A stretch of DNA of 64,000 bases. Source: Lophium mytilinum. Taxonomy: Eukaryota > Ascomycota > Dothideomycetes > Mytilinidiales > Mytilinidiaceae. Positions 5,964-55,646 of this stretch are shown here, one piece after another (position 1 is the first letter of the stretch; each line of letters starts with the position of its first letter). The translations under genes were made by a program, and so were the position numbers. Location of the stretch: contig MU004200.1 of assembly GCA_010093605.1 (NCBI GenBank), forward strand, positions 192,155-256,154, given 5' to 3'. Under the pieces are notes generated by a model that ran no database searches, was not told the origin of the DNA, and was given only the letters and a program-made list of their open reading frames with translations.

Positions 5964-8426
5964 TCATTCCGCCCGAGCGTCAGCACGAGCTCCTTTCCCC
6001 TCCGTAAAGAACGAGTGATCCACCCAATTCTTGGTATACACCTCTCCATCTAGCATCGCGCTCTGCACAAACACCGCCGCATAACTCGGATCGAAGTTCA
6101 GGTTCCGAATCGTAGCGGTCTTATTAGTGAGTGGGGACGTGACACTGACCGACTCGAAGAATGGCGGCGTAATGAGGTACACGTCCTGCCCGGGGTTCGG
6201 AAACAGCCCCATCATCGCCCATGCCACGAAGGACCCCATAGCGCCGCTGTCGTCGTTGCCGGGGAGGCCGGCTGCGGTGGGGGAGAAGAACGCGGGGATG
6301 TACGAGTGGACGCGGCGGGCGGAGAGGGCGGGGCGGCCAGCATAGTGGTACTGGAAGACGGTGAGGAAGGCAGGTTCGTTGCCGATATAAGTGATGTTCT
6401 GGTTGTGGAGGTAGTCGAGACGGCGAACGAAAGCGGCAGGCCCGCTGAACGTGTAAATAAGAGTGGCTTGGTCGTGGGGGACGAAGAAAGAATACTCCCA
6501 TATACTGCTTTCGAAGGTCTCTCCAGCGGTGTTTTGAAGCGAGCAGATGCTATTGGGATCGAGGTCGGTGTTGCTGCATTTCAGGGGGTCTTGGTAGCCC
6601 CAGGTGCCGTTAAGGTATTTCGGCTGGAAGAAGCCGACGAAGCCAGTGTTGACGCCGTTGGGCTTGAAAGAAGTTTGGTCGGGCTTGAAGAGATTCTTCC
6701 AGTTGGAGCTGCGCGCTTCGTACTTCTCGACGTCGGCAGTTTTGTTGAGGCCGGCGGCGATTTGAGAGATGACGAAGTCGTTATAGCTGTATTCGAGGGT
6801 GCGGGATATAGAGCGGGTCATAGTGCCAAAGCCCTTGTAGTCAAAGTCTTGGACAGGTATGTAACCTAGTGCTTTCCAGCTATCGAGTCCGCCACGACCT
6901 TCATTGGACCAATCGTATGGCTCTACCTCCGCGTCTTTTACGACAGCTGCGTAGCCAGTATCCCAATCGATACTGTCCTTGAGGCCTTTGATGAAAGCAT
7001 CCGCAAGAACCACATCTGCGTTCGAACCGCCCTGGGTGAACCCCTTGCACAGCGACATGCGGCAATCAGGGAGCCACCCGAGGTGGGTGTAGGTGTCGAT
7101 CAATGAACGAATCATTCGAGTGACGCTTTCAGGGTCCAAAATGGTCAGGAATGGAATCTGGGACCGGAAAGAATCCCAAAGACTGCAAAACGATCAGTAA
7201 ACATTCAAGTAAAAGGGCTGGTAGTACAAACCAGTAGAACGAATCGAAATACGGTTCATCACTCTGCCACAGAGGATTCTCGCCAGTGTAGTCTTGCGGA
7301 TTGACCATAGTCCTATAGATCCCGCTATAGAAATTTGTGAGAAGTGAAGCGCTCACACCCGTGGTAGAGACCTTGACGGGGCTTAGTTTGCTCCTCCAAG
7401 CGTCAACTGCACCTTTTTGCGTAGTTTCGAAATCAAACTCGGGGATTTCGGCCTCAGCATGACTACAAGCTCGATCACTACTAACCAAGCTCACACCCAG
7501 TCGAGCAAGAATGGGCTCACTTCCAGAATCGAAACGGATGAAGCCTCCCCCGGGAAGAGGGAAGCCGTTGATACCACGAGAGATCTTCAGGTCTTTGACA
7601 TCCGCACTCGCACGGCTGTTGGCAAAGATACCACTATCCCGAATATTTGCGCCATGAAAGTCAGCGCAGAAGTAGGCCACAAAGTTACCGGATCCAAAGC
7701 TAGGCAAAAATCGAGCACTGCCAGTCATCCTGCCGGAAGGTCCATCGACATGGATGGTGGCATTGTCTTGACGAGAGTTCGCTAAATCCGTCAAATCTAA
7801 GAGTACCAAAGGCGATCCATTGGAGCTGTCGGAGAATTTGAATCGAAATAGCGAGGTATGATGCGCGGCAGTCATGTCAACGGTGACCCCGCTAGACAAC
7901 TGAATGCTGAAGTATCCGGGAGATGCCTTGACGGAATTGTTGACGTAGGAAACCTTTCTCGCGTTCTTGGGGTACGTGCAGCCATTGACATCGTCACCAG
8001 CGCAATTGGCATAGGGAAAGAATGCGAAGTTTCCCAATGATGGACTGCCGCCGGTGCCGCTGTCGTGCATGGAGGAGAAACCAGTGACTTTACCACCTTC
8101 TGACGTGAAACCGCCTTGGTTGCTGTCTGAATCGACATCTGCGACAGCTTTGGCCATTCCTTGACACACTTAGTATACTATATGCGCTCGATGAGTGTTG
8201 GCATTACCGTATGGCATCGTAGCGCCGGCAAATACATTTCCTGTCGTCCAAGTTAGTGAACTAGGAGGAGGGAAGTGAGAGAAATATGCTTGCCTCCATT
8301 GGCGCTTCCGATCAGCTGGTTAACGTACTGCAGTGGGTCGTAGGTTGAATTAGTGACATTCTGAGCACATGCAATAGCAGCAACGAAGACAAAGACGAAC
8401 AAAAAAGATGATCGTAGGGGATCCAT
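5964..8426 (-). CDS. Secreted GH92 alpha-mannosidase; C-terminus displaced by apparent 1-nt insertion
   Basis: Four exons (8294-8426, 8208-8240, 7232-8159, 5964-7182) give 770 aa. The first intron uses a GC donor (GC-AG). The start has a signal peptide (M-D-P-L-R-S-S then a Phe/Val-rich core, cleavage near A-Q-N-V). GH92 enzymes are exo-alpha-1,2-mannosidases that trim N-glycans, usually outside the cell in fungi. Family landmarks are S-D-E-P-Y-F-D-S, F-T-Q-G-G-S-N-A-D-V-V and P-G-N-D-D-S-G-A-M-G-S-F. The annotated frame ends in a low-complexity tail (A-R-A-D-A-R-A-E). The family-like ending (E-L-V-L-T-L-G-R, then E-S-K-W-G-T) lies in the overlapping frame running to 5828, and the switch falls at an A-run near 5994-5996. 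The true end may therefore be 5828. Confidence 0.88.
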
Positions 8427-11163: not shown

Positions 11164-12586
11164 CTACTCTTCGTCTGACACACACTCGACCCCAATATCT
11201 CCGCTAATATTATTGCAGACAATTACCGGTGGTCCTCCGGCCGGACTCGTGATATCAATGTCCTCCAAATGAATCCCCTCGCACGTCGCACCAGGACTAC
11301 AAGTCAAATCCGCGACTACTCTCCCCTCCAGACCCGAGCTAGTCCCATGGACATTGATAAATCTCACATCCGAGATGTTGACGTTGCTCGGGTACTGCGC
11401 ACACGCCGTTTCGTTGATATTGAAGTAGCACTGATCCAGCACGATGGGATGGTCCGTGTTTTCGACATGGACGTCTTTGTATGTTATGTTGGTGATGTAG
11501 CCGTACCCGACATTCTCTCCGGCCCATGCTTTGAGCCGTGCGCCGTTTTGACCGTTCAGGAGCGTGATGTTCTCGAGCCAAGCGTTGGAAATGAAATCGA
11601 GCACGCCCGGGTACTGGCCAATGGAGCCCATGCTCACTCCATGTGTGCCGTTGCACCAGAGATTCTTGACGAGTATGTTGGTGGTGTTGGGTTTTGGGGA
11701 GAAGCAGTCGTCGCCGACGTTGACTTCAGTATTGGTAACGGTCAACCCGTCGACGTTGAGTGAGTCAAAGCCGTCGGTGTTTGCAGGGCGGGACTACTAG
11801 AGATGAGCAATAACATCGTAGAGAGAGCTAGTTTATCGCTTACCGAAACGTTAGTAGAGACAGCATCAAATCGACAATGATCAAACGTAATATCTTTCGT
11901 TCTTACGAGAAACGTGTTCCAGCAAGGGGAGTTCAAAAACTTAATCCCCTCCACTTCGACATTCGTAGCATTATCTGTGAGGAAGAGGATCGGGCGAAGG
12001 AACGTATTTCCTGGATCGAGAATCTGCTTGCCGGCGAAAGCGTCATACCAAGCCTGTCCGTTCCCATTCAGCGTACCGCTACCGTAGAGCTTGATATTTT
12101 TCCCGCCCCAAACCCAGAAAGTAATGGATTTCTGAAAGGGGTAGTAGAAATAGTCGGATTGCCAATAGGTGATGTTGTTGGTGAACTGTCGAATAGGTAA
12201 GCATCACTCAAGTCGTAGGAAGTATAGTCAATTACCTTGATTTCTCCGTCTAGCTTCACATAGATGTCGTTCAGCCAACTCAAATCCAACTTCTTTCCAA
12301 TCACGTATGTTTTTCCCTTCTCCAGATGGAACAAGCCGCCTTTATTGGCCCTCCGCATTGCCCAGAGGAAGTCATCCGCAACATCGTCGGTGTCATTCTT
12401 GCTTGCTCTGATCGTGACTGCGCGTCTCTGCGACTCGAGACCGTTGCCCCATTTGTCTTTTGCCCATCGCTTGTTTAAGGAGGGACTGGGAGCTTCAACG
12501 ACCGATGCGCCAGCTGGAATAAGCCTCTCGATGGATACTGCCGAAGAGAGGAATGCAAATGCGAAAACAATGATAAGGAGTTTCAT
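11164..12586 (-). CDS. Secreted GH28 exo-polygalacturonase-like pectinase
   Basis: Three exons (12236-12586, 11844-12185, 11164-11793) encode 440 aa. The start chosen is M-K-L-L-I-I at 12586, which gives a classic signal peptide; an ATG six codons upstream would bury it. The GH28 catalytic signatures are N-T-D-G-F-D-S, G-D-D-C-F-S, T-H-G-V-S-M-G-S and R-L-K-A-W in the expected order. The pattern after the Asp pair (P-K-P-N-T-T-N-I and C-N-G-T-H-G) is that of exo-acting polygalacturonases, which release galacturonic acid from pectin ends. Several N-x-S/T sequons fit a secreted glycoprotein. Both introns are 50 bp. This enzyme and the GH92 protein suggest a saprotrophic or plant-associated life, which is inference. 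Confidence 0.88.
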
Positions 12587-32709: not shown

Positions 32710-34583
32710 TCATTCCTCCTGGATCGTTTCCATCCGCGTCCGTCTCGGCCGCTTTACTTTGCCTGGCGGCGCCATCCGGATTTCTTGAAGAAGTTCCCTG
32801 GGTAGCAGCTTCTGGGCCAGCGAGAAAGACGACGTGTTGACATTGATCTGCCGTTGTCTGTTGCGAAGTTCATTAGCGATGCGGTCTGTTGGCTGTATAT
32901 ATATGTACAAAAGTGTAACATACCTCTTCATAAGCATAATGACATCAGAGTCATCAATCGTCTTCCGCTGCGCATGCTGCGCGTAATCCGCCAGGTCCTC
33001 ACCCGCTTGCTCGAAGAACCAGTCTGTAGCCTGCATGATTGCAGTGAGCGTCTCTTTGCTGATCTTCGAGTTGATGCCCTGGGACTTCGCGAAGCCGTTT
33101 GCAAGCTTTTTGACGACGCCGGAGGGGAACTCTGGATACTCGGTGCCGTTTTTGGAGACGCGGAGTTCTCTTCGTCGTCGGCCTGCTTTTTTGGCGGTGG
33201 TAGGATCGGGGCCGGGCAGGATGCTTCGATCTATAGCTGCCTCTTCCTCTCGGTAGGCTTGCAGGTCCGCTGCCACCACCTCTTCGTTTGGGTCCTCGAA
33301 ATCCGGTTCTTCATCTAAGACTATGTCGTCTTCGGCTTCCACAGCGTCATCATCATCGTCCGGGACTGGTGGGACCATATCGTCTTCATCCTCCTCATAC
33401 TCCCCGTCCTCAGTCTGACCAGCATCGTCATCTGGGGCCTCATCACCTAGGGCCTCATCATCCGCAACCACCGGCGAGGCCTCACGAAGAACACGTTGCG
33501 GGACGATAAACCTAAACGTAGGATCATCCGGCTCCTCGTCATCATCCTCTAACCCCTCAAGCTCACTCAGTCGACTTTGCCTACGGTCCATCAGAGCGCG
33601 AAGCTCGACTGTATTGTCATCGAACTCATCTCCAACGTCGTCGTCCCCAAGTAGCAGCTCATCCTCGTCCATCCTCGGCCTTCGATTGATAAATGCGCCA
33701 TCAATCTCGAACTCGCTAGGCTCAGGCCCTAGGTCATTCAACTCACCGAACCCGCTCAAACGCGTTGAGAATCGTCGTCTTGGGTCCTCGCTCAATGCCC
33801 GCCGCCCAAACTCGAGGGATTGCATAGTCGCGTTGTCCACGTCGTCTGGTAAATCCGGGAGCATGGACTGCCGCGGTGGAGCCTCGTGGAAAGAGTCGTC
33901 GTCGTACAGATCACCCAGAGGCATGCTGAGGCGCGGTCGCTCCATATCCGGACCGGCATCGAAATCGTCTAGGGCGGGATTCCGGTTACGAGGCGGTTGG
34001 GTGTCGCCATCGGGGGACAGGACCGTGGGCTTAGTAGATTTCGCGAGGACTGTAATAGTGCAATGATCAGTTGACTGTTTCCTCGAAAATGTCTGTGCTA
34101 TACCCACTTCTGCTCAATGCTCGCAGCGTATCCCGCGGCGTCTCCCTCTGCCCCCGCCCGCTCTTCCGTCTGTTCTGCCCCGGGGTCCGCGCAGCCTCCA
34201 ACCGTTCTCGCAGGGCGCGGATCGCATGAGGTGTTGTAGGGGCGCCGCGACGCGCGGTAATGGGTCGGGTTGCTGGGCCGCCCCGCGGTGTGCGAGCAGC
34301 GCTTCCCGGGGTTCGGATCGCGATGTTTGGGGTTCTGTTGCGTTCGCGGCCTCCAGAGAGAGGACCGGCGCTGGATGGCCGTCGGACGGGAGTTGAGGTT
34401 GGGCGAATGATGCGACCGAGCTGGTGTAGCTATCGAAAAATCAGACATTGCTATGAATTCCTGATGGGGAGAGAAGCTTACAGTAGCAAATGCAGTCTCC
34501 TCGGTCTCCTCATCCGGAACTACTTCATTGGCGGTGGAATTCCGAGGGGTGATTCGCGCCCTTTTTCGCTCGGGTTCAGACAT
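32710..34583 (-). CDS. Kinetochore protein CENP-T (Cnn1 homologue)
   Basis: Exons 34482-34583, 34108-34429, 32924-34049 and 32710-32857 encode 565 aa. The C-terminal ~110 residues form the CENP-T histone fold: F-P-S-G-V-V-K-K-L-A, A-T-D-W-F-F-E-Q-A-G-E-D-L-A-D-Y-A, K-T-I-D-D-S-D-V-I-M-L-M-K-R-Q-R, and L-L-P-R-E-L-L-Q-E-I-R. The N-terminal region is basic, with repeated T-P-R/R-T-P motifs and E-T-P-R-D-T-L-R-A-L-S-R, a segment conserved in CENP-T. A very acidic linker of about 250 residues separates the two. CENP-T links centromeric chromatin (with CENP-W) to the Ndc80 complex. The T-P sites are likely mitotic kinase sites, by analogy with characterised homologues. The stop lies only 28 bp from the convergent SURF1 stop. 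Confidence 0.93.
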
Positions 34584-38681: not shown

Positions 38682-41636
38682 TCAAAGAACGTCCAAACCG
38701 GCATCCTTAAGCGCCTGCTCGGAAATCTGCTGGCCAGCAACCTCCGTCGTAGGCCCCTTAACTTTCGTCTGCCAAGCAGTAGTACTAGCACCACCGACAA
38801 GGGCACTACCGCTAGGAGCAGCACCGCCTACACTTCCCGGAGCACCCCCAAGCTCCTGCTCCGCCATCTCGTTCAACTGTTCCTGGGTGTACGCTGTCCC
38901 TCTTCCAGAGTCTTCCGCACGGGGGGCAACTTTCACGATCTCATAATCCGGATTGCGGTAATTCTCAGGGTCTCGGGCAACCTCCTCGAAAAAGTCGAGG
39001 ACGGATTTGAACATGCGCGGGAAGATGCACTCAGGGTGGTCGGCAGGGGTGTCGTCGACGCCAGGGCCACCGGAGAAGGTCAGGCAGATGGGATTGGAAT
39101 AGGAGGAGGAGGCGTCGTTGGGGTCGTTCGTAGGGGTAGGATCGCCTTCGGAAGCGGGCAAATGAAGTACATCTTTGTCAGTGGTTGCAGCAGCGCCTCC
39201 TTCAGTGGACTCGACGTGGGCGAGCTCTTCGTTGGACGTAGCGGGATTTCCTTTGGGAGACGCGGTGGCTGGTTCTTTGCCTTTGCTGGACGAGGACGTT
39301 GGCGCCTTGGGACGTTCGACGAGCTCCTCTCTGTGCTCGCCGGAAGAGATCGTAGGCGGAGAGTCTGAGGCAGGGTTTTCGATAGACGCAGCCTGGCTTG
39401 CTTCGGTGGACGCGGTGGACGTGGTGGCTGGCTCCTTGCCTTTGCTGGACGAGGACGTAAACGCCTTGGGACGTTCGACGAGCTTCTCTTTGCTCTCGTC
39501 GGAGGGAAGCGTGGGCTTGGTGTCTGAGGCGGGTTTGACGTTCTCGTCGCCCGCGGGAAGACCTTCTGTTGCTAGGGTGATCAGTATGATAGCAATGTAA
39601 AAGGCCGCCATCTTCCTCTTGACTTACTAATAGAAGAAGATGTAGACTCTCCGAGCGACTTAAAGGTAGGTTTTACCGTCTTGGTAGAGGAAGGCGATGG
39701 TGAAGGAGAATCAAGGACGCCAAGAGTATGAGGATCGATTGCTGCACGGTTGATCAATATTCTGGGAGCATGATTAGGTGGAGAGGTCTGTCTTGACTTA
39801 CCAGTGGAATGGCTGGCTAATGAGGTCGGTGGCTTGGTCGCCGTTGGTTGGTCTTTCACGTCGTCCGAAGATTCAGTGCGTTTCTTTAGAGACAGTGCGC
39901 CAACCACGACGTCCTTCGTGTGTTCTGCTTTTATATGCATAGAGGAGAGGGCTTTTCGTAGTTTTCCTGGTTCCTTCTCCTCCGGTTCCACCATTACTTC
40001 GAGCCAGTTGATTTTTCTCTTCGCCTGTGTATTAACTGCATGGGGATCAGGGCCCCCGGTGAACTTGGACACCAAAGCTTTGATTGGGCCACTGTCCTTC
40101 CTTGGCTTTGACTCTGGCTTTGCCGTATCGATAGGTTCACCTTCCTCAGTCTGTGCCCAAGCGCCATCGAACTTGGTCGGTTTCGACACCGGTATGTTAG
40201 CCGGCTCGTCGTTCTCCGGCTTGACCCAAGCTCGAGTGCGATGACGAAGGAAATTTGCGAGTGGTGCATGCTCAATCTCATCAGCGGTAGTGCCAGGCTG
40301 GATAAAGGCCATTGCCTTGATTTGAGATGGGAATAGCGGTCTAGAGAAGGCCCCTTTCTCGGGAGACGAGAATGGGAACAGTGTGTCGCCGACGTCTTCT
40401 AGACAAGGTCAGTAAGTTTATACGTGTTAGTATGAAGGTGCCGCTGTAGCACGTGGTTCAATGTGTCTGCAGGGTGGGAAAGAAGAGGGAGTTGGACGGA
40501 GGACGCCGCTGCATGTCTTGCTTCAGTGTGCTATATAGCGAAATTGATGTTGAGTACGGTTTCACGACAAGGAACTTACCTTTACGATTCATAAGCATCA
40601 AAAGATCTTTTGCCCCCGACTCAATTCCAACGACGTATACCTCGGCTTTCGGATGGACGTATTCTCCGCTGTTGATGATGTGTTTGAAGACCCACTCGAT
40701 ATGGGCTTTTGGGGTCTCGTTGCCTCCCACCCTGTTGGCGTCCGCAATAGATCTACTCCCTGAGATACGTGACTTTCGCGGTAAAGCTTCCCACGAAGTC
40801 ATAGTCATCGCCTCGTTCCGCTCGTAGGAGAAATATAGCTGTCCAGTATTCAAGACAATGACGCCAGGTGGGCCTCCTCCATACATGTCGGCTAGTTGTT
40901 GCGAAAGCTCGGCAGCTTTATACGTCGCTTGTGACAACACATCGGCCGAAGGTTGAGAGGAGGTAGCAGGGCGTTTCTTCAAGACGTCAACTTCGTGCGA
41001 CGCCTTAGTCAAAGCGACCTTCAGCTTGTCTAGAACCGGAATATCGGCACCAAGACCGGGACGAGAGTCAATGTCATCGGCCGAATGGTCCTGGTAAGTG
41101 TCCCCAAAAGAACGATGCCTCATTTCCTTGACAAAATTGGCCACCGAGCCTCCATCTATGCCTGCCGAGCGGTGTAACAGCCGGTATGCCAGTATACCCA
41201 GGTCTTGTTTGCTGTCATTGACAACAACGATAACCCGCTTTCGGGTCTTGAGAATATCAAATCGAGTGGCCAGAATGGCAAGATGTGGGATCGATTCGGT
41301 CCGATCGGGAGGGACTTCGCTGAACGTGGGGAGGTAGAAGCGCATGATGCCAAGGGCTTCAAGGCGGAAGTAGACTTCGGCCCGCGTGCATTCTTCATTT
41401 CGTGCTTGTCAGCTTGTGGTTTACAAATAGCCAATTATTGCAAAGAGCTTACGGTGCATAGCTTCGCGGTGTACCTCGTTATGACGAGCGTCATTGGTGA
41501 GGTGGAAGTTGAAATTCAGGTTGGGATCTTTTATAGACTTGATGAAGCCATCCTCAGTGACGAAGTATCCCAGGGCCTCCAGGTTCTCGGGATACACAGG
41601 GTCTGCTCCGGCGCCTCCATGCTGGAGATGAAACAT
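38682..41636 (-). CDS. Arb2-domain protein with long disordered tail
   Basis: Exons 41453-41636, 40580-41404, 39802-40398, 39628-39741 and 38682-39565 encode 867 aa. The Arb2 fold starts at once (P-V-Y-P-E-N-L-E-A-L-G-Y-F) and includes E-V-H-R-E-A-M, V-I-V-L-N-T-G-Q-L, M-T-S-W-E-A-L-P-R-K, V-Y-V-V-G-I-E-S-G-A and F-L-R-H-R-T-R-A-W-V. Arb2 is the domain of the S. pombe siRNA chaperone Arb2 and of Hda1-type deacetylase tails. The C-terminal ~500 residues are Ser/Thr/Pro/Lys-rich, with an imperfect internal duplication (R-P-K-A-[FP]-T-S-S-S-S-K-G-K-E-P-A-T). They end in a conserved-looking block, D-H-P-E-C-I-F-P-R-M-F-K-S-V-L-D-F-F. A nuclear or heterochromatin role is possible but unproven. Confidence 0.85.
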
Positions 41637-43365: not shown

Positions 43366-45746
43366 ATGACTACAATGTTCTCTCCCACTGACGTGCAGGA
43401 CCTACTTTGCCTGTTCCAACCGACAACAGTACTTGGTGGTAGTGATCATGACGGTCGTATCTCTCCAATGTCGCTATTACCGTCTCGGTCTGGCAAGGGC
43501 TTCTTGGTTTTCACCAGGGTTGTACAAGAACTAGAACGGAGGCTCTCGAAAGGTTAGTAAAAGTGCATCCTATATCTCAGTCTACTTGTCATAATATTAT
43601 GCCCCCTCGTTCACCACTCATCCGCGGTGCTTCAATATGGTCTCAAAAGCTGTCAAGTATCATTCCATCTGAGCTCTGGCTCCTAGGAGAAGCTCGCATA
43701 CACAGCTGTCTTAGGTGGCCTAGCCAAGTGATCAGCGGGCTGTAGCGACGGAGAATAGTGTAGACCGAGATTTCGAAACTAAAGAGGCGCCCGTGAGAGC
43801 GGTGAGACTGTATATGAGTTCATGACGAGGCAAAGTCGATGACGCTAAAGCAAAAACTGATCCCTACAGACATCAAACGGATCGACGTCTCTACCATCTC
43901 CCAAGAGCTGGACGTTAGCGAGGCGATAGTGCTACGCACTCTGAAGGAATCGCCCTTCCAAGCTCTATTCTCTCAAGATAAGCGTTACATTCTCCCTGAT
44001 CCCGACGTACGGAGGATGAAACAACAGCTACTCGACTCTACGAGCCGAGGACTCGTACCCAAGTCGGCTTTCTCCTTTGATAACGATCTCTCACCCGAAG
44101 CGACCGACGTATTAGTCACTGAAGCAGGCGGAGCTCTTCTGCAGCTAGAAGACCCTCAATCAGGAAGAGTACACCTGACAGCCGTCACGTATCAGGATTC
44201 CTTGGACAATGAGATCCGCATCGCGCTCCAAGCTAGTCAGAATGCAGCCAAGTATATACATAGACTCATACATGCTATGGCCTTAGTGCTAATATAGTGC
44301 AGATCCACAAGCCTACTTTCCGAGCACTTTGTTGGCGCCCCACCTTTATGGTATACATTCCAGAGAGCAAAGCATGTCTCCGGGCGAGATATAAATCTTC
44401 GAGGGAGAGTCGAGATGACGGAATCTGCCGTGTCCTACCAGCCAGAAACGTATCTCGTTAGTATGCGAGACTATACTCTCGAGCAACTTCGCACGGGCGC
44501 TATATCTCATTGTAATATGGAGCAGTTCGTCGAAACGCTACCTGAGTTATACAGTGATCTCTCCAGCATTCAAGTATACTTTCAGAAAGCTCTAGGCGAC
44601 CGTGGATCTTTCGCTTCCAGATACGCAACCTCCCAGGCATGGCTGGAAGCAAACCGCAAGAGTGAAGTGCAAAGACTGGTTGCAGATGGCTACTCAAATG
44701 TGTCTGTACGTATATGTACTTTTGCTAGTGCCATTTCACCGCTAACGAACGTCTAGTCATCGATAAAAGCGAATTTCCCCGAAGAAGTAGAAGCGGGGAT
44801 ACTACGAACAGAGACGGAGCAAATCGTCTCATCGATTGAAGGCCCATCAACTGCTACTAAGGTGACCGCGGTCAGCCATTACCTATTCCGAGACGACTAC
44901 CTGCAGGAGCTCACCGACTTCATCCTGGACGCCTCTCGGGAGCAAGCTAAGACCCAATGGGCGCGGCTTGAACAAATTCCTGAGCAGGATTGCTCACTGG
45001 TGAGATCGGAGATATTCAAGGAGTTCCCGAAGAACGAGAAGAACCAGGATCTCGTCATCGTACTAGGAGCGGTATTCGAGGAGAACGAAGGGCACGCTAA
45101 AGCAGCGTTCGCAGAGCAGATTGCAGACTTGGAAACGCAGAACGAGACAGAGTTTGCGTTGTTCTGGTCGGACAGGGTCGTTGCCCGCCTTCACGTCTAC
45201 AGGACGGGCGCGGATGCGATCGCGGATCCCAAGCTGAGAGGCCAACTACTGGAACTGCTGCAAACCCATGCGGTCAAAGAGCTAATCCCAGAATCGCTTG
45301 CTCGCGCTCAGACGAAGGGCCTACTCCGGAGTAAAAAGACGAAGAAGAACGCATCAAAGTTCACCACGGCACTGAAATCCGCCTCAGACCTACCCACCAT
45401 CTCCACCTCACTAGACAAGTTCGCGAAGAAACAAGGCATTGAGGCCCCGACACCAGAAGCACTGGCGGAAAAAAAGTCCAGCCAGCTGAAAGAGCTGATC
45501 CGCGGCTTGAAGAAAGATGGAGATGGGCCTCGTCTCTTCCTGACGCTCATGGTGTTGTTGCTAGCCAATCGACAGGCAGGCATCGTGTATGCAACGGGTA
45601 AGTTTGCGCCGAAGCTCATGAAGCTGCTGAAGGAGTCGATTGGCAGCGTGGAATACGAGCAGCTGGAGAAGTGGAAGGATGCGGTTAAGGCGGGCAGTTT
45701 GACAGCTGAAGATAAGGCGCAGATGAGGGCGCTGGCAGCAGAGTAA
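43366..45746 (+). CDS. UFL1-like protein (candidate UFM1 E3 ligase homologue)
   Basis: Exons 43366-43552, 43870-44251, 44303-44705 and 44757-45746 total 1962 nt, or 653 aa; every junction closes in phase. The first intron is 317 bp. By recognised pattern the order matches UFL1. There is an N-terminal helix (V-V-Q-E-L-E-R-R-L), then winged-helix segments (I-D-V-S-T-I-S-Q-E-L-D-V-S-E and G-L-V-P-K-S-A-F-S-F-D-N-D-L). A central helical part has G-R-D-I-N-L-R-G and L-R-T-G-A-I-S, a Lys-rich linker follows (S-K-K-T-K-K-N), and the C-terminal helical domain has L-F-L-T-L-M-V-L-L-L and A-T-G-K-F-A-P-K-L. UFL1 attaches UFM1 to substrates such as ribosomal protein uL24 at the ER, with DDRGK1. I see no alternative family, but the identity rests on alignment by eye. 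Length is shorter than animal UFL1 (about 790 aa). Confidence 0.6.
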
Positions 45747-45801: not shown

Positions 45802-46253
45802 GGCATGAAAAAGGTGGCACACTACCGTAGTTCAACACTGTCTGAGGTGGCCAGAAGAGCCATTAGGCTTGCCAAAGCTAGTATTCTATAAGTAGCAATA
45901 GTATACTAGAGGACCTCTAACAGTGCTAAATAAGTATAGAAGTAGTAGATATACCTTATTAAGTTCTAGACTGCCATTCCGTTCTACTACTTATCTTCTA
46001 CGCTCTCTTATTGCTGTTCTACCTAGTAGGTATAGTAGGTATAGTAGGTATAGTAGGTATAGTAGGTATAGTAGGTATAGTAGGTATAGTAGGTATAGTA
46101 GGTGCTCCCGGTGTGCTGCTACTTAGAATGCCTTAATAAGTTTTTAGATAGCCTAAAGCTAAGAGATTTTATCTTGTTTATACTTTTAAAACTGCATTAA
46201 AGCACCATAAACAGGGGTACACAACGCAGAATAGGTGCCACCTTTTTCATGCC
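45802..46253. mobile_element. MITE copy 2 (452 bp) with internal 9-bp microsatellite
   Basis: The ends are near-perfect inverted repeats: GGCATGAAAAAGGTGGCAC on the left and its complement (GTGCCACCTTTTTCATGCC) on the right. The core near 46130-46210 (CCTTAATAAGTTTTTAGATA and GCATTAAAGCACC) is homologous to copies 1 and 3. It is larger than its relatives because of an AT-rich insert and a microsatellite. No protein-coding capacity is seen. Confidence 0.82.
46024..46101. repeat. Microsatellite (AGTAGGTAT)n, about 8-9 copies
   Basis: A perfect 9-bp period runs through this stretch, inside MITE copy 2. It is low-complexity. Confidence 0.9.
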
Positions 46254-51764: not shown

Positions 51765-53857
<2,093 letters not shown>

Positions 53858-54681
53858 TATTCAGGAGACTTTGGGGGATCCGGGTGTAGGGGCGGTGAGA
53901 GGTGAGATTTAGGGAGAAGGTATGTTGTTTCGGGGCCTCAATGGCTTTGTATGAAAACCTCGAGAGAAACAATTCGCGTTCCTAGTCGATAGTGGCTTCA
54001 GGCGTTCGTCGGCGCGCACGTCATCCACTGGATCCTTGTTCGTTTCGAGAAGAACGCGTACAGGAGGCCGTTTGGAGTAGATTAGGGGCTTGTGGAAGGT
54101 AGATACGAAGGTGAAGGGGAATGTCAAGAAAGAGAGGAAGTCCACGAATATTTTATTCCACAGATCGGCGGATGACCGGAGTGGGATGTCATGGCCCAGC
54201 TTACCAAAGGCCCCATGGATTTGCCGTCAAGAAAGAAAAAAAAGTCCGGTCTCTGGTAGGCCCGCAAATGCGCGGCACTGATTGCGTGATCGAGGGCACG
54301 GGATCCGTTTGGGCAGCACGTTGCGGACGCGGATTCCGTCGAGGGGTGACACCCAGCACGAAATCGACGGAGGTCCGATATATGTAAGACGAAGCTCGCG
54401 AGTCCTTCAATCTCACTTTCATTCACCATCTCAGTTTCATGCCTTGATTTATATTTTTTGTTTCATTTACAGGTCTTACTTGACTCTAGCTGCCTGCTTC
54501 GACTTTTTCCTATCCTTCTTTTCCAGGCCCCGTTTTTGGTAGTACTCAGAAAGAGAGATGCCGCTGTCCCCCACCTCCAATGATCATGGAGTCATGCAAA
54601 ACGCTCAAAAGACAAAACGCCAATGCTAAGATGCTTGGACTGACAAAGCAATAGAGAGAACAACCCAATCGAATCACCCCT
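53858..54681. promoter_or_regulatory. MET3 promoter / MET16 3' flank
   Basis: This interval separates two co-directional sulfur genes. No coding frame is recognised. I looked for a palindromic ATGRYRYCAT (CYS3/MetR) site and did not find a clear one. Confidence 0.4.
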
Positions 54682-55646
54682 TCACGCCACAGATATCCCT
54701 TGCAAGCCCAGCGCCAACTCCTCTTCTTGGCGCTTGACCTCCTGCTGCCTCAAGAACTGGGCGTACTTGGACTTGGGATTGTGAATACCGCACTCCGTCT
54801 TGGCGCGACCCTTCCAGCGACCCGCTCGCTCGTCTTCGCCCTCCGCAATAGGCTGGGTAGAGTGCCAGTCGCCGATGCTCTTGTAGCCGCGGTCGAGCAG
54901 TTCGTTGTACGGCACGTTGTTCGCGTGGATGTACTCCTGTACCTGCTTGAAAGACCAGTTGGCGAGGGGGTTGATCTTGATAAGGCCCGCCTCGTCGACT
55001 TCGATGATGTCGAGGTCGCCGCGCTTGCCGCCTTGGCTGCGACGACGGCCGGTCAGGACGGCCTTGACTTGGAGTTCGGAATAGGCGCGTTGAGCGGGCT
55101 CGACCTTCGCGACGTAGTCGTAGAGCTCTTCATTCTTCGTCCAGAGGGTCTGGCCGTGCTTGGAGGCGAACTCATCGGCGGTTTCGACACCCTCGGGCTT
55201 GTAGACGTGGACGGTGAAGCGGGGATAGTTCTTTCGAACGCGTTCGACTAGGGAGAGCGTCTCGTCGAAATGGTGGAGAGTGTCGAGGAAGATAAGATCA
55301 ACATTGGGCTTGATGGGGGTGGTGATTTTGGACAGCATGTCTAGGGCGACCAGACCCGTAAGACCAAAGGCCGTGGTCTGGTACAGACTTGGCAGGGACA
55401 TGATGCACCATTGGAGAATAGCTATAGTAGGTCAGTATATACCCCGCACACGGTGGGGTGAGGCAATGGCAACATGCCTTCAGGCTCGGCCCTCTGCAGC
55501 TGCGAGTTGAGGAACTTAAGATGTTGCTTGCTGAAGGTAACTTCTGGCAACGAATCGTCTTCTGAAGCACCGCTAGCGTACCCCGACTCGACGTTCCTCG
55601 TCTTCACATCCTCCTCGTACGGCTCGTCGTAGACAGCGGACGTCAT
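54682..55646 (-). CDS. MET16: Phosphoadenosine phosphosulfate (PAPS) reductase
   Basis: Exons 55478-55646 and 54682-55421 encode 302 aa. The intron has a GC donor (GC-AG, GCATGT); the phase closes only with this choice. Family marks are S-L-Y-Q-T-T-A-F-G-L-T-G-L-V, F-L-D-T-L-H-H-F-D-E-T, G-R-R-R-S-Q-G, W-S-F-K-Q-V and the catalytic K-T-E-C-G-I-H. The Cys of E-C-G-x-H forms the sulfo-enzyme intermediate that releases sulfite, with thioredoxin as reductant. There are no extra Cys-Cys pairs for an iron-sulfur cluster, so it is a PAPS and not an APS reductase. It lies upstream of MET3 in the same direction, 824 bp apart. Linkage of these two genes is also known in Aspergillus nidulans (sA and sC). 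Confidence 0.95.

Follow-up and report, generated by a model that had tools for sequence, protein, structure and literature searches.

Gene structure and coding potential

The window, that is, the whole 64,000-nucleotide stretch of DNA that was analysed, was part of one of the 24 contigs of the 43.18-Mb genome searched. The UFL1-like gene was located on the plus strand (43366–45746). It was composed of four exons, which were joined in phase to encode an apparently intact protein of 653 residues, and all three introns (317, 51, and 51 nt) had GT..AG boundaries. The exons and introns were as follows.

43366..43552, plus strand: exon 1, residues 1–62 and the first base of codon 63; ATG at 43366; own frame the best of six, with a weak score
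43553..43869, plus strand: intron 1, 317 nt, GT..AG; coding score below zero in each of the six frames
43870..44251, plus strand: exon 2, with in-phase join and codon score
44252..44302, plus strand: intron 2, 51 nt, GT..AG
44303..44705, plus strand: exon 3, with in-phase join and codon score
44706..44756, plus strand: intron 3, 51 nt, GT..AG
44757..45746, plus strand: exon 4, residues 325–653 and the stop codon, with in-phase join and codon score

The codon score, which was trained on five other frames from the same genome, was highest for the gene's own frame in each of the four exons. Exon 1 was the weakest, and 15% of random stretches scored as well. Translation may instead start at an in-frame ATG (43839), inside intron 1 and before exon 2, which would drop exon 1 from the protein. 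The original prediction that four exons close in phase to a 653-residue protein was borne out by the in-phase joins, the GT..AG introns, and the codon score.

Several other features were observed in the window. The next gene upstream, on the minus strand, began like mitochondrial uS14; among solved structures, its first 36 residues matched a single chain at E ≤ 0.001, 6yw5_NN (MRP2), from a structure that we take to be of Neurospora crassa. This match and the short introns are in keeping with a filamentous ascomycete. Near the UFL1-like gene, a minus-strand frame (40461–41408) carried an Arb2 domain (E 6.6e-25), and a short tandem array with a GTAGGTATA-type unit, recognized by eye, was located downstream of the gene (46020–46100). 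Two sulfate-assimilation genes lay near each other within 51768–55431, both on the minus strand: one for an ATP-sulfurylase carrying an APS-kinase domain at its C-terminus (51768–53024) and one for a PAPS reductase (54685–55431). A frame with a CENP-T histone fold (32713–34113, minus strand; E 2.1e-41) and frames of glycosyl hydrolase families 92 (5967–7193) and 28 (11167–11793) were also present. Separately from the window, actin-like genes (L005–L018) were found in 14 contigs titled bacterial, and six of the 14 were more than 70% identical to typed yeast actin; these genes are possibly eukaryotic contamination.

Similarity to UFL1

In animals and plants, UFL1 takes part in tagging ribosomes with the small modifier UFM1. 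According to the accessible text of PMC9627666, human UFL1 has a helix at its N-terminus and a winged helix that is only partial and that UFBP1 (DDRGK1) completes; the other parts are five winged helices and a helical region at the C-terminus. Three segments of the fungal protein were compared with this arrangement.

43528..44030, plus strand: N-terminal anchor, residues 55–116, spanning intron 1; aligned to human UFL1 residues 6–70 (N-terminal helix and partial winged helix)
45303..45362, plus strand: Lys/Arg-rich stretch, residues 507–526, differing from the human linker position
45489..45686, plus strand: UFL1_C domain match from the profile search, residues 569–634

The UFL1_C profile (PF25041) matched the whole protein with an E value of 7.1e-4 (19.8 bits) and the C-terminal 213 residues with an E value of 4.5e-5 (23.7 bits), against a curated Pfam cut-off of 24 bits and 153.3 bits for the human UFL1 control. 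UFL1 had been named before any search, and therefore few models were really under test. Across the 43-Mb genome, the profile matched a single locus, the UFL1-like gene, with an E value of 0.0032 at genome scale. The best other Pfam family on the whole protein was UBA_HYPK (E 0.17). No winged-helix or PCI family, the case named beforehand as refuting the assignment, outscored UFL1_C, and no PCI match was obtained.

At the N-terminus, residues 55–116 aligned to human UFL1 residues 6–70 with 27% identity (17/62), and 0, 0, and 1 of 1000 shuffles scored as well under three matrices. Both anchors followed the UFL1 order along the chain. The E3_UFM1_ligase profile (PF09743) gave no match at E ≤ 10 to the whole protein or its pieces (human control, 393.3 bits) and none at E ≤ 0.001 across the whole genome. 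Similarly, the UFL1 middle domain (PF23659) had no match in the protein (human control, 148 bits) and none at E ≤ 10 across the whole genome. Because PF09743 had no match while the pairwise N-terminal alignment was significant, the protein was filed as a putative diverged homologue and not as a UFL1 member by profile. In pairwise hhalign with UFL1, 9 of 200 shuffles scored higher.

The original prediction had claimed a UFL1 match along the whole length. The claim stood at both ends, through the UFL1_C profile, the N-terminal alignment, and the anchor order, and did not stand for motifs along the whole length. Of the Pfam models proposed for checking it, UFL1_C matched below its cut-off, and E3_UFM1_ligase and the middle domain were unmatched. 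The structure prediction proposed for the same purpose gave a pLDDT of only 35.6 at full length and 62.4 for residues 41–126, and fold searches with the latter model gave no informative match. The equivalence to the Lys-rich linker was not supported: the Lys/Arg-rich stretch sat inside the C-terminal part, away from the human linker position.

Residues and segments linked to UFM1

In the portion of PMC10937380 available, residues Ile8, Phe15, and Gln19 of human UFL1 contact UFC1 and their mutation breaks UFC1 binding, the C-terminal domain occupies the tRNA-binding groove of the 60S subunit, and the loop of residues 436–448, containing GGN, reaches the peptidyl-transferase centre (PTC). Residue Leu45 is described as necessary for UFBP1 binding (part of PMC9627666). 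Human Phe15 and Gln19 were aligned to Ile64 and Asp68 under three matrices, Ile8 to Glu57 under only one of the three, and Leu45, at the UFBP1 interface, to the hydrophobic residue Phe92; these equivalences depend on one low-identity pairwise alignment. The GGN of the PTC loop was absent from the fungal protein, in which GG occurred at only two sites (24 and 149), and the human loop appears to have no visible counterpart. The fungal protein was composed of 653 residues, compared with 794 in human UFL1, and the stretch between the anchors was 148 residues shorter (454 versus 602).

Search for the UFM1 pathway in the genome

Genes were searched exon by exon. UFM1 gave no match at E ≤ 10 in a whole-genome profile search, nor did UFC1 or CDK5RAP3 (C53) in whole-genome searches at the same threshold. 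The control Urm1, a ubiquitin-like protein similar in size to UFM1, was found at 8.2e-25 in the same genome.

The ThiF search for E1 enzymes gave 11 matches at seven loci. The best solved-structure matches of six loci were UBA2, UBA3, TCD1, ATG7, UBA4, and AOS1, and the seventh, a 1018-residue frame containing two ThiF domains, was provisionally named UBA1 from its layout. UBA5 was the best match of none of the seven loci, the seventh being named by layout, and UBA5 chains turned up only among the weak hits for the TCD1 locus, at 8e-10 or worse. APPBP1/ULA1, expected beside UBA3, was not among the seven ThiF loci, and the ThiF search therefore misses some E1-like genes.

The DDRGK profile (PF09756) had one sub-threshold match across the genome (E 0.0045). 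This match was the proteasome subunit Rpn6, and it was rejected as a DDRGK1 candidate. The C-terminus of human DDRGK1 had no match in the whole genome; both DDRGK1 searches were run without a eukaryotic positive control. The C78 peptidase search across the genome gave one strong gene (L002, contig C17, 541094–544372) and one weak match (E 1.41). A UBZ-like finger was present in a frame just upstream of the strong gene (E 1.1e-5; 25.4 bits against a cut-off of 25.6), and the two frames probably belong to one gene. A UBZ-type finger with a C78 peptidase is presumably the layout of ZUFSP/ZUP1 and not of UFSP2, so the gene is a candidate ZUFSP/ZUP1-like deubiquitinase. An argument from the tail of RPL26, which ends ...RKSTGREAKLKRTKE in this genome as read by eye, was dropped as too uncertain; we take the human RPL26 tail to be longer.

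The genome search for UFM1, UBA5, UFC1, UFSP2, and DDRGK1 proposed at the outset found no UFM1, UBA5, UFC1, or DDRGK1, and its sole strong C78 gene looked ZUFSP-like. Absence of the UFM1 cascade from the genome is likely but not proven, because the control genomes of the search tool were prokaryotes.

Proposed role and alternative explanations

We lean towards the view that the gene encodes a diverged UFL1 homologue in a filamentous ascomycete lacking the UFM1 cascade, and that the protein would act as a ligase-dead, UFM1-independent scaffold at the 60S subunit or the ER. The fungal chain would be built of stacked winged helices with a helical C-terminal region at its end, and it may still hold the 60S subunit or the ER-bound ribosome, as human UFL1 does. 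The modifier would no longer be passed on, because the aligned UFC1 contacts differ and no UFC1 was detected. Nor would the chain reach the PTC any longer, as nothing corresponding to the human loop is visible in it. In other words, the scaffold part of UFL1 would be retained and the parts serving UFM1 transfer lost; most simply, the scaffold would then bind 60S subunits or ER-bound ribosomes and leave them unmarked.

The original prediction had offered two options, survival of the UFM1 pathway or repurposing of the scaffold once the modifier was lost; the second, widened to include a scaffold simply retained, fits better. A full or reduced pathway, in which the protein is a working E3 scaffold and the search overlooked partners that are small, split by introns, or diverged, is very improbable. 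UFL1 itself is so diverged that PF09743 misses it, and its partners might be missed likewise, the more easily given the short length of UFM1 and UFC1 and the exon-by-exon search; in addition, C17 carries a peptidase of the C78 family. However, Urm1 was found, none of the seven E1 loci best-matched UBA5, no UFM1, UFC1, CDK5RAP3, or DDRGK1 was detected, the C78 gene has the zinc-finger frame of a ZUFSP/ZUP1-like gene upstream, and the aligned UFC1-contact positions are changed. In addition, UFM1 is reported as missing from fungi in the accessible parts of PMC4327156, PMC10183829, and PMC4092871.

The common occurrence of winged helices, the lack of an N-terminal or middle UFL1 profile match, the UFL1_C score below the Pfam cut-off, and the shuffles that beat the hhalign score would also agree with another tandem winged-helix, PCI-like, or helical-repeat family, whose ends resemble UFL1 by convergence or chance. 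This is quite unlikely, since no Pfam family scored better on the whole protein and the resemblance to the two UFL1 ends lies in two separate parts of a single chain and keeps their order. It is somewhat easier to envisage, though still doubtful, that the homologue works in a DDRGK1 (UFBP1) complex kept without UFM1, with DDRGK1 too diverged to detect. The hydrophobic Phe92 aligned to Leu45 at the UFBP1 interface favours such a complex, while the sole PF09756 match to Rpn6 and the unmatched human DDRGK1 C-terminus, neither search having a eukaryotic control, argue against it.

An unlikely variant of the scaffold reading is a stand-alone UFL1, in which UFM1 and DDRGK1 are both gone and the first winged helix might be closed within its own chain, making the protein an ascomycete factor of the 60S subunit or the ER. 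The first winged helix of human UFL1 is only partial, and the rest is supplied by DDRGK1 (PMC9627666, accessible text). In the low-confidence model, helices were placed at about residues 44–65, 70–73, and 78–89, followed by a wing-like stretch, and the model formed no wing strands. The protein was not recognizable as a DDRGK1 fusion: for a likeness of residues 40–78 to the C-terminus of DDRGK1, three matrices gave p = 0.96, 0.88, and 0.56.

Significance and comparison with known systems

If the UFM1-independent scaffold reading is right, a fungus keeping a UFL1 homologue without the modifier would open a UFM1-independent role to study in isolation, perhaps in a genetically tractable relative. 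It would separate the parts of UFL1 tied to UFM1 (the E2-binding helix and PTC loop) from those that are not, and hints that UFL1 can act without the tag. A stand-alone UFL1, if true, would show what UFL1 did before or without UFM1.

UFL1 without UFM1 is already known as a general situation. According to the available part of PMC10183829, components of the pathway persist in certain fungi, UFL1 and DDRGK1 often remain where UFM1 is absent, also in other eukaryotes, and an origin before UFM1 and a role independent of it are proposed for the two; UFMylation-independent functions of UFL1 were likewise raised by structural work (PMC10937380, in part). The new part would be an ascomycete UFL1 copy without detectable DDRGK1 or PTC loop, and PMC10183829, as far as its accessible text goes, may already include an ascomycete. 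No description of an ascomycete UFL1 was noted among the literature matches listed, judged by titles and abstract openings, with subscription journals mostly outside their scope.

Compared with the systems of PMC10183829, in its accessible part, the fungus shares a UFL1 homologue and the failure to find UFM1 and C53/CDK5RAP3, and differs in that DDRGK1 was undetected and that it appears to be an ascomycete. The winged helices of UFL1 could be classed as PCI-like (PMC9627666, in part); unlike the PCI and winged-helix proteins of the proteasome lid, CSN, and eIF3, the fungal protein had no PCI match. The N-terminal and middle Pfam models match human UFL1 (PDB codes 8ohd_A and 8qfc_B) and not the fungal protein, and the aligned UFC1 contacts are changed, whereas the fungal protein resembles the human one in its N-terminal anchor at residues 55–116 and its below-cut-off UFL1_C match at residues 569–634, in the same order.
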